A stretch of 64,000 nucleotides of DNA from Amyelois transitella (taxonomy: Eukaryota; Arthropoda; Insecta; Lepidoptera; Pyralidae): assembly GCF_032362555.1 (NCBI RefSeq), contig NC_083532.1, forward strand, positions 4,539,001-4,603,000, read 5' to 3'. A program made the position numbers and the translations under genes. Position 1 is the stretch's first letter, and the number at the start of each line of letters is the position of its first letter. This document shows positions 39,101-42,100 of the stretch, piece by piece. Under the pieces are notes generated by a model. The model made no database searches and had not been told where the DNA came from. It worked only from the letters and a program-made list of their open reading frames with translations.

Positions 39101-42100
39101 CTTAATGATATAATTGAGATTCAAATAGTGACAGGTTTGGAAGCCTATTCCTTAGTCGCCTTTTACGACATCCACGGGAAAGAGATGGAGCGGTCCTATT
39201 CTTTTTTGTATTGGTGCCAACCACACGGCATAAGGTAAGATTGCTAGTACTTACATCATGTGCCGTGTGGTTCCCGGCACCAATACAAAAAAAAAGAATA
39301 GGACCACTCCACCTCTTTCTCATGGATGTCGTAAAAGGCGATTAAGAGATAGGCTCACAAACTTGGGATTGTTTTTTAGGCGATGGGCTATCAACCTGTC
39401 ACTATTTGAATCTCAATTCTATCATCAAGCCACATAGCCATTCGTGGCCGATCAGTCTTTTCAAAATTATTGGCTCTATCTACCCCGCGAGGAATATAAC
39501 CGTGACTATATGTTGAACGTATGTACATTTTAAAATGTGTTTGCTTGAAACTCTGTTAGATCTTTTCTGCTATTCTCGTTTTCGAAAATTGACTAGGTAT
39601 TTGATTAACCAATAGGTAACATTGTTTCCACATTACAGATCGTGGGTTGTACCCATATAAACGCACAGACAGCGGTGCTAATTGAGACTCTAGCAGCGTT
39701 GGGAGCCACTGTCCGCTGGGCGGCATGTAACATTTACAGCACGCAGAATGAGGTGGCAGCCGCCTTGGCTCATGCTGGTATGTATCTTGAGACTGTCGCA
39801 GCGTTGGGAGCCACTGTCCGCTGGGCGGCATGTAACATTTACAGCACGCAGAATGAAGTGGCAGCTGCTTTGGCTCATGCTGGTATGTATCTTGAGACTG
39901 TCGCAGCGTTGGGAGCCACTGTCCGCTGGGCGGCATGTAACATTTACAGCACGCAGAATGAGGTGGCAGCCGCCTTGGCTCATGCTGGTATGTATATTGA
40001 GACTGTCGCAGCGTTGGGAGCCACTGTACGCTGGGCGGCATGTAACATTTACAGCACGCAGAATAACTTTCTGTCCGAACAGATATGATCTAACCGTGAT
40101 CTTATGATTCGAGTCGTAATCATAAGATCCATCTTTAGACGATGGAAAATTAATAATAATGGATCTTACTGTTGGCTAAGTTAACATAAAAGCTTTCCTC
40201 CTTTATATTAAATACTTATTTATCTATTTATGTACATCAAGGAAAATAAGAATAAAACTTTTAATAAAAAGAAATTCAGTACAAGGGCACTACTTATTTC
40301 TAGAGAAAATAGTATTTAATTCTTCAATGTAATAATTATTAAAAAACATTACAACGCCATACAATACAGGCTATGCCGTATTTGTATTAGTGCCGTGTGG
40401 TCCCCGGCACCATTAAAAAAAAAAAAGAATAGTACCACTCCATCTCTCTCCCATGGATGTCGTAAAAGGCGACTAAGGTACAGGCTTACAAACTTAGCAT
40501 TCTTTTTTAGGCTATGTTCTATCAACCTGTCACTACTAGAATCACAATTCTATCATTAATCCAAACAGCTGAACGTATCCTATCAGTCTTTTCAAGACTG
40601 TCGGCCCTGTCTACCCGGCAAGGGATATAGACGTGACCATATGTATGTACGTACAGGCTACGCAGTCTTCGCGTGGCGCGGCGAGAGCGAGGAAGCTTTC
40701 TGGTGGTGTATTGACCAATGCTGTACCCCCACGGCGGCGTGGCAGCCCAATATGATCTTGGATGATGGTGGTGACGCCACCCATCTCATGCTGAAGAAGC
40801 ACGGTTCGGCTTTCAAGAATATTAAGGGTAAGTTTTATATTAATGTCGCTTACTAGAGCTTGGTACAAAGGGGGGACTGAACAAATGAAGCTATACTAAC
40901 GTTTTATGTTCATGTCGTCTACTAGGGCTTGGTACAAAGGGGGGACTGAACAAATGAAGCTATACTAACGTTTTATGTTCATGTCGTCTACTAGGGCTTG
41001 GTACAAAGGGGGGACTGAACAAATGAAGCTATACTAACGTTTTATGTTCATGTCGTCTACTAGGGCTTGGTACAAAGGGGGGACTGAACAAATGAAGCTA
41101 TACTAACGTTTTATGTTCCTGTCGTCTACTAGGGCTTGGTACAAAGGGGGGACTGAACAAATGAAGCTATACTAATGTTTTATGTTCATGTCGTCTACTA
41201 GAGCTTGGTACAAAGGGGGGACTGAACAAATGAAGCTATACTAACGTTTTATGTTCATGTCGCCTATTAGGGCTTGGTACAAAGGGGGGACTGAACAAAT
41301 GAAGCTATACTAATGTTTTATGTTCATGTCGTCTACTAGAGCTTGGTACAAAGGGGGGACTGAACAAATGAAGCTATACTAACGTTTTATGTTCATGTCG
41401 TCTACTAGGGCTTGGTACAAAGGGGGGACTGAACAAATGAAGCTATACTAACGTTTTATGTTCCTGTCGTCTACTAGGGCTTGGTACAAAGGGGGGACTG
41501 AACAAATGAAGCTATACTAACGTTTTATGTTCCTGTCGTCTACTAGGGCTTGGTACAAAGGGGGGACTGAACAAATGAAGCTATAATAACGTTTTATGTT
41601 CCTGTCGTCTACTAGGGCTTGGTACAAAGGGGGGACTGAACAAATGAAGCTATACTAACGTTTTATGTTCCTGTCGTCTACTAGGGCTTGGTACAAAGGG
41701 GGGACTGAACAAATGAAGCTATAATAACGTTTTATGTTCATGTCGTCTACTAGGGCTTGGTACAAAGGGGGGACTGAACAAATGAAGCTATACTAACGTT
41801 TTATGTTCATGTCGCCTATTAGGGCTTGGTGGAAAGGGGGGACTGAACAAATGAAGCTATACTAACGTTTTATGTTCATGTCGTCTACTAGGGCTTGGTA
41901 CAAAGGGGAGACTGAACAAATGAAGCTATACTAACGTTTTATGTTAATGTCGTCTACTAGGGCTTGGTACAAAGGGGGGACTGAACAAATGAAGCTATAC
42001 TAACGTTTTATGTTCATGTCGCCTATTAGGGCTTGGTGGAAAGGGGGGACTGAACAAATGAAGCTATACTAACGTTTTATGTTCATGTCGTCTACTAGGG

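Follow-up and report, generated by a model that had tools for sequence, protein, structure and literature searches.

The window, by which we mean the whole 64,000-nucleotide stretch of Amyelois transitella DNA that was analysed, contains an IRBIT-type adenosylhomocysteinase-like gene (AHCYL; Table 1). When joined, its ten exons encode a protein of 531 residues in an uninterrupted frame. The best structure match of this protein is 3mtg (residues 89-531, E 9.6e-240), and the bit scores are 799.9 for 3mtg, 796.3 for 3gvp and 545.8 for the best AHCY. The two top records, titled adenosylhomocysteinase 2 and 3, are taken here to represent AHCYL1 and AHCYL2, respectively. The order is reversed for a control, the 315-residue open frame of a paralogue on contig C1, which scores 561 bits with AHCY versus 332.2 with 3mtg; because of these scores this other locus of the AdoHcyase family is, judged by its sequence, AHCY. 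The AHCY-like domain encoded in the window is nearer to AHCYL than to AHCY, and it is preceded by an N-terminal extension of about 100 residues, serine-rich by eye (the match to AHCY starts at residue 104), both of which are characteristics of the AHCYL/IRBIT family. The AHCYL identity that had been proposed in a first-pass annotation is therefore borne out by the scores of 3mtg and 3gvp, which lie above that of AHCY.

The matches to profile PF05221 in the genome (14 at E <= 1, from 12 candidates, all scored) are confined to the AHCYL locus and the single C1 locus, and the AHCYL locus is the only one found in the 327-Mb genome. Among these matches, which fall at AHCYL and the C1 AHCY only, there is no retrocopy that records AHCYL splicing. 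A literature search for AHCYL1 in Lepidoptera returned nothing.

Table 1. Features of the AHCYL gene, of the repeat array at the end of exon 3 and of intron 3 (positions in the window; a slash marks the exon-intron boundary)
Feature	Position	Strand	Remarks
AHCYL (IRBIT-type adenosylhomocysteinase-like) coding span	30141..49987	+	ten exons, joined by script
AHCYL exons 1-5	30141-30378, 38808-39010, 39639-39777, 40657-40827, 44408-44540	+	
AHCYL exons 6-10	45397-45523, 45747-45824, 46596-46775, 48191-48358, 49829-49987	+	
Exon 3 with donor 1	39639..39777	+	139 nt, ends GCTG/GTATGT, phase 1; 46-residue match, best 3mtg and 3gvp
Unit 1	39684..39788	+	covers the final 94 nt of exon 3, donor 1 and the start of the intron
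Unit 2, donor 2 following 39882	39789..39893	+	in frame with exon 3
Unit 3, donor 3 following 39987	39894..39998	+	in frame with exon 3
Unit 4	39999..40064	+	broken off after 66 bases within exon-derived sequence; without donor
Open frame past array	40065..40089	+	ends at TGA 40087-40089
Dispersed repeat fragment, intron 3	40213..40308	.	approximate bounds; 932 candidates, and of the 40 scored, 39 lie at other genomic positions
Upstream 18-nt repeat copy, acceptor A1	40365..40382	+	exon would begin at 40370; codons G-Y-A-V-F; early stop if used
SINE-like dispersed repeat between acceptor copies	40390..40651	+	matches in window
Downstream 18-nt repeat copy, acceptor A2	40652..40669	+	exon 4 from 40657
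Exon 4	40657..40827	+	PF05221 profile match, joined translation, structure match

A tandem array begins within exon 3. Tandem Repeats Finder places it at 39682-40064, with a period of 105, 3.6 copies, 96% matches and a score of 717, and together with a comparison of the units it confirms the four 105-bp unit starts that had been read from the sequence before. The copied part of exon 3 (39684-39777) comprises 94 of its 139 nucleotides, i.e. two thirds and not the half that had been suggested; two preceding T residues are also common to the copies, and in this register the unit extends 11 nt beyond the end of the exon. Unit 4 matches the other units up to 40064 and is non-homologous past that base. 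The copies are adjacent, have the same orientation and span the exon-intron boundary, as in a tandem duplication. In a search of unit 1 against its own genome (327,366,114 bases in 33 contigs) the four array units were retrieved and no match elsewhere, and the sequence directly after unit 4 (40065-40200) returned only itself. Just after the broken-off unit, at 40098-40129, lies a perfect inverted repeat of 12 bp around an 8-nt loop.

Units 1 to 3 carry the same donor, as the first-pass annotation had noted: GCTG/GTATGT is found after 39777, 39882 and 39987, and the three 9-nt donors are identical. Splicing to 40657 from donors 1, 2 and 3 gives proteins of 531, 566 and 601 residues, respectively, each with the gene's own stop only. 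The earlier proposal that donors 2 and 3 add 35 and 70 residues with the frame kept thus holds, and the exon 4 start and all other coordinates given with it are correct. In unspliced RNA the frame continues through all units to the TGA at the end of the open frame. The product of donor 1 is colinear with 3mtg: the exon 3/4 junction aligns without a gap, and the AHCY-like domain as a whole aligns with a single gap of one residue.

The calculated U1 pairing of the common array donor is -4.8 kcal/mol, the weakest in the gene's set of nine (the other eight range from -4.9 to -11.1). With no difference among the three 9-nt donors in sequence or score, nothing local favours donor 1. The predicted RNA accessibility decreases from donor 2, which is slightly more open, to donor 1 and then donor 3 in both settings, an order that does not support accessibility as a cause of a donor 1 preference. 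New introns within the array were considered as well and rejected: ATTTACAG, the acceptor-like sequence present in every unit, would create 67-nt introns and 38-nt exons, with a shifted frame.

The units differ at 5 (units 1 and 2), 3 (units 1 and 3) and 4 (units 2 and 3) of 105 sites, and seven sites vary when units 1-3 are compared with one another and with the homologous stretch of unit 4. Units 2-4 share two substitutions relative to unit 1, at positions 7 and 9 (CTA to GTC, Leu to Val), in agreement with the earlier observation of shared changes; the Leu of unit 1 is also found at that codon in 3mtg. The order proposed in the first-pass annotation, one duplication first and amplification after it, holds as the simplest. 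The sequences fit a first duplication, an amplification and the loss of the last donor, and a single repair event in which the template was switched repeatedly is a possible alternative origin. Between units 3 and 4 the junction sequence is TATATT, and at the other two junctions it is TATCTT; as unit 1 has an A at the same place, the TATATT junction may be the earliest.

Exon-derived sequence carries four changes private to one unit, three in unit 2 and one in unit 4, and every one of them is synonymous. This count excludes the Leu-to-Val codon (positions 7 and 9) and the Leu/Ile junction position 103, both of which are amino-acid changes. Given a synonymous share of 27.7% among random changes, P is 0.0059 if the four are independent and 0.077 if the clustered three are counted as one event. 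The three clustered changes of unit 2 may come from one conversion event from another allele. The exclusively synonymous character of the private changes hints either that the copies are translated or that a coding allele converted them.

At the other end of intron 3 the acceptor is doubled, a feature absent from the first-pass annotation, as are the lost donor of unit 4 and the minisatellite of intron 4. An 18-nt repeat, which contains the acceptor AG together with the opening codons of exon 4 (G-Y-A-V-F in both copies), surrounds a SINE-like dispersed repeat, which has 14 other window matches of at least 250 nt at 73-86% identity, plus many shorter ones. The arrangement looks like a target-site duplication around the insert. 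The 18-nt copies differ at three sites, all of them third codon positions; in a simple post hoc comparison over the 18 sites the likelihood is 0.42 with both copies constrained, 0.006 with the upstream copy neutral and 0.001 with both neutral. Neutrality of the upstream copy would not explain well that only third positions differ. In total, intron 3 has three donors and two acceptors, and only acceptor A2 yields the full protein: use of A1 reads into the insert, where the protein stops after 208 residues. A2 is not an unusually weak acceptor, as its pyrimidine share over 17 bases (0.53) is the same as that of four other AHCYL acceptors.

The neighbouring introns carry repeats of their own. Intron 2 contains two SINE-like copies in opposite orientations (39018-39230 and 39259-39525). 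The first of these is also inverted with respect to the intron 3 copy, so that inverted repeats flank exon 3, an arrangement that might favour a circular exon 3 RNA. A 69-bp minisatellite (40832-43760) begins at the fifth base of intron 4, and the 42 genomic matches of its unit all lie inside that intron. The motif TACTAAC occurs 34 times in intron 4 and 38 times in the window; each of the intron 4 motifs has an AG beginning 15-35 nt downstream, resembling a decoy of branch point and acceptor. Elsewhere in the window, two long open frames on the minus strand, 21217-24402 (1061 residues) and 57680-60643 (987 residues), appear by eye to be non-LTR retrotransposon-like.

Which of the donors would be used? 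The first-pass annotation had allowed both for alternative isoforms and for a sole functional first donor. In one study the downstream of two 5' splice sites was reportedly chosen. In non-insect reporter libraries the first of two tandem 5' splice sites of equal strength was mostly used, also when both matched the consensus, and the authors describe the prior evidence on this choice as conflicting (PMC6783452). Because these reporters favour the first of equal sites, donor 1 is expected to be used in most cases. On balance we consider it probable that the gene is spliced mainly from donor 1 to A2, which gives the normal 531-residue protein, and that units 2-4 are intronic passengers with a possible in-frame leak. 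The last two thirds of exon 3 with its donor would have been duplicated in tandem, after which one copy would have gained the Leu-to-Val codon and been amplified. A deletion or repair junction would then have taken away the end of the last copy together with its donor. Splicing would run chiefly from 39777 to 40657, and units 2 to 4 would sit in the intron as near-neutral passengers. As donors 2 and 3 are intact, their use at a low level is conceivable, and would yield the products with 35 or 70 additional residues.

The predominance of donor 1 is supported by the conserved protein that results from this shortest form of the exon. The passenger status of the other units is in line with the missing donor of unit 4 and with the protein changes relative to copy 1 (Leu to Val in copies 2-4, Leu/Ile at the junctions). 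Against a preference for donor 1 stand the identity of the donors, the low U1 score and the accessibility led by donor 2, and the synonymous nature of all four private changes is not something that neutral passengers require.

Alternatively, donors 2 and 3 could be used to a meaningful extent, the longer isoforms being translated and tolerated or even useful, with each copy adding one strand-helix unit to the AHCY-like domain. We regard this as rather unlikely, although both donors leave the frame open, the private changes are synonymous, and a single-sequence structure model shows strands and helices in alternation, repeating about every 35 residues. Moreover, AHCYL paralogues have been described as incapable of SAH hydrolysis (PMC12955632), so that damage to the active site would not have to be fatal. 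However, the insert would enter a domain that otherwise aligns to 3mtg with just the one-residue gap, the reporters favour the first donor (PMC6783452), and unit 2 alone contains three of the four synonymous changes, a cluster that perhaps reflects a single conversion. The structure model, one model of the contiguous translation of 39639-40086 made without an alignment, carries little weight: its mean pLDDT is 65.4, and of its 768 Foldseek matches at E <= 10 none has E <= 0.001. A stronger version, in which the units are retained as coding sequence and position picks the donor, giving graded AHCYL proteins with one, two or three 35-residue strand-helix units, seems quite improbable.

It is also unlikely that all three donors are used at low or mixed levels without regulation, the extra isoforms being unstable noise. 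Identical weak donors in nearly identical contexts are what such usage would start from, and since the frame is not shifted the extra isoforms would presumably escape removal by nonsense-mediated decay; the first-donor rule (PMC6783452) nevertheless predicts little use of the other two. Far less probable is that the transcript sometimes terminates in intron 3, with retention up to the stop at 40087, a truncated protein of 296 residues and possibly a poly(A) site downstream: the frame is indeed open to 40089 and A(A/T)TAAA motifs occur at 40207, 40251, 40263, 40338 and 40412, but such motifs are frequent in A+T-rich introns and nothing else supports cleavage. Finally, tandem arrays are prone to misassembly, but it is very improbable that the real locus has a single unit, since private substitutions distinguish the units, the last one is broken off, and the 383-bp array is shorter than one long read.

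The nearest published case that we found is the potato RdRp gene (PMC4974935), a coding gene in which a partial duplication likewise spans an exon-intron boundary and the copies are told apart by substitutions. There, however, the duplication took in the acceptor side and produced a new intron, confirmed by RNA reads, whereas the AHCYL array copies the donor side, shows no new in-frame intron and places several donors in one intron. Drosophila intron gains at AG/GY proto-splice sites (PMC2891723) also involve tandem exon copies with splice signals, and a copied exon part may turn intronic; the AHCYL unit differs in having CTG instead of AG before the GT. Intron gain by tandem duplication, in which AG and GT bound a new intron that is neutral to the protein, was accordingly rejected: CTG precedes the donor, and the acceptor-like site examined shifts the frame.

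As in the tandem alternative 5' splice sites of PMC6783452, several donors lie upstream of one acceptor. The AHCYL donors, of which the second and third are putative in their use, differ from those sites in their origin as copies whose surroundings are nearly identical over about 100 nt, which leaves position as nearly the sole difference among them. Part-exon repeats able to lengthen a protein region are likewise known from the internal tandem duplications around NOTCH1 exon 28 in leukaemia; these occur in tumours and are expressed (PMC11718197), whereas the AHCYL array lies in a reference genome and its inclusion in mRNA is putative. No report of a donor-side array of the AHCYL kind was found in the literature searched, most subscription journals lying outside it.

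With identical donors, nearly identical surroundings of 100 nt and in-frame outcomes, the array constitutes a natural test of the choice that the spliceosome makes by position alone, set in an intact and apparently single-copy AHCYL gene. Ordinary splicing from donor 1 is what we most expect. In addition, the locus may represent an early stage by which a conserved domain could acquire internal repeats.
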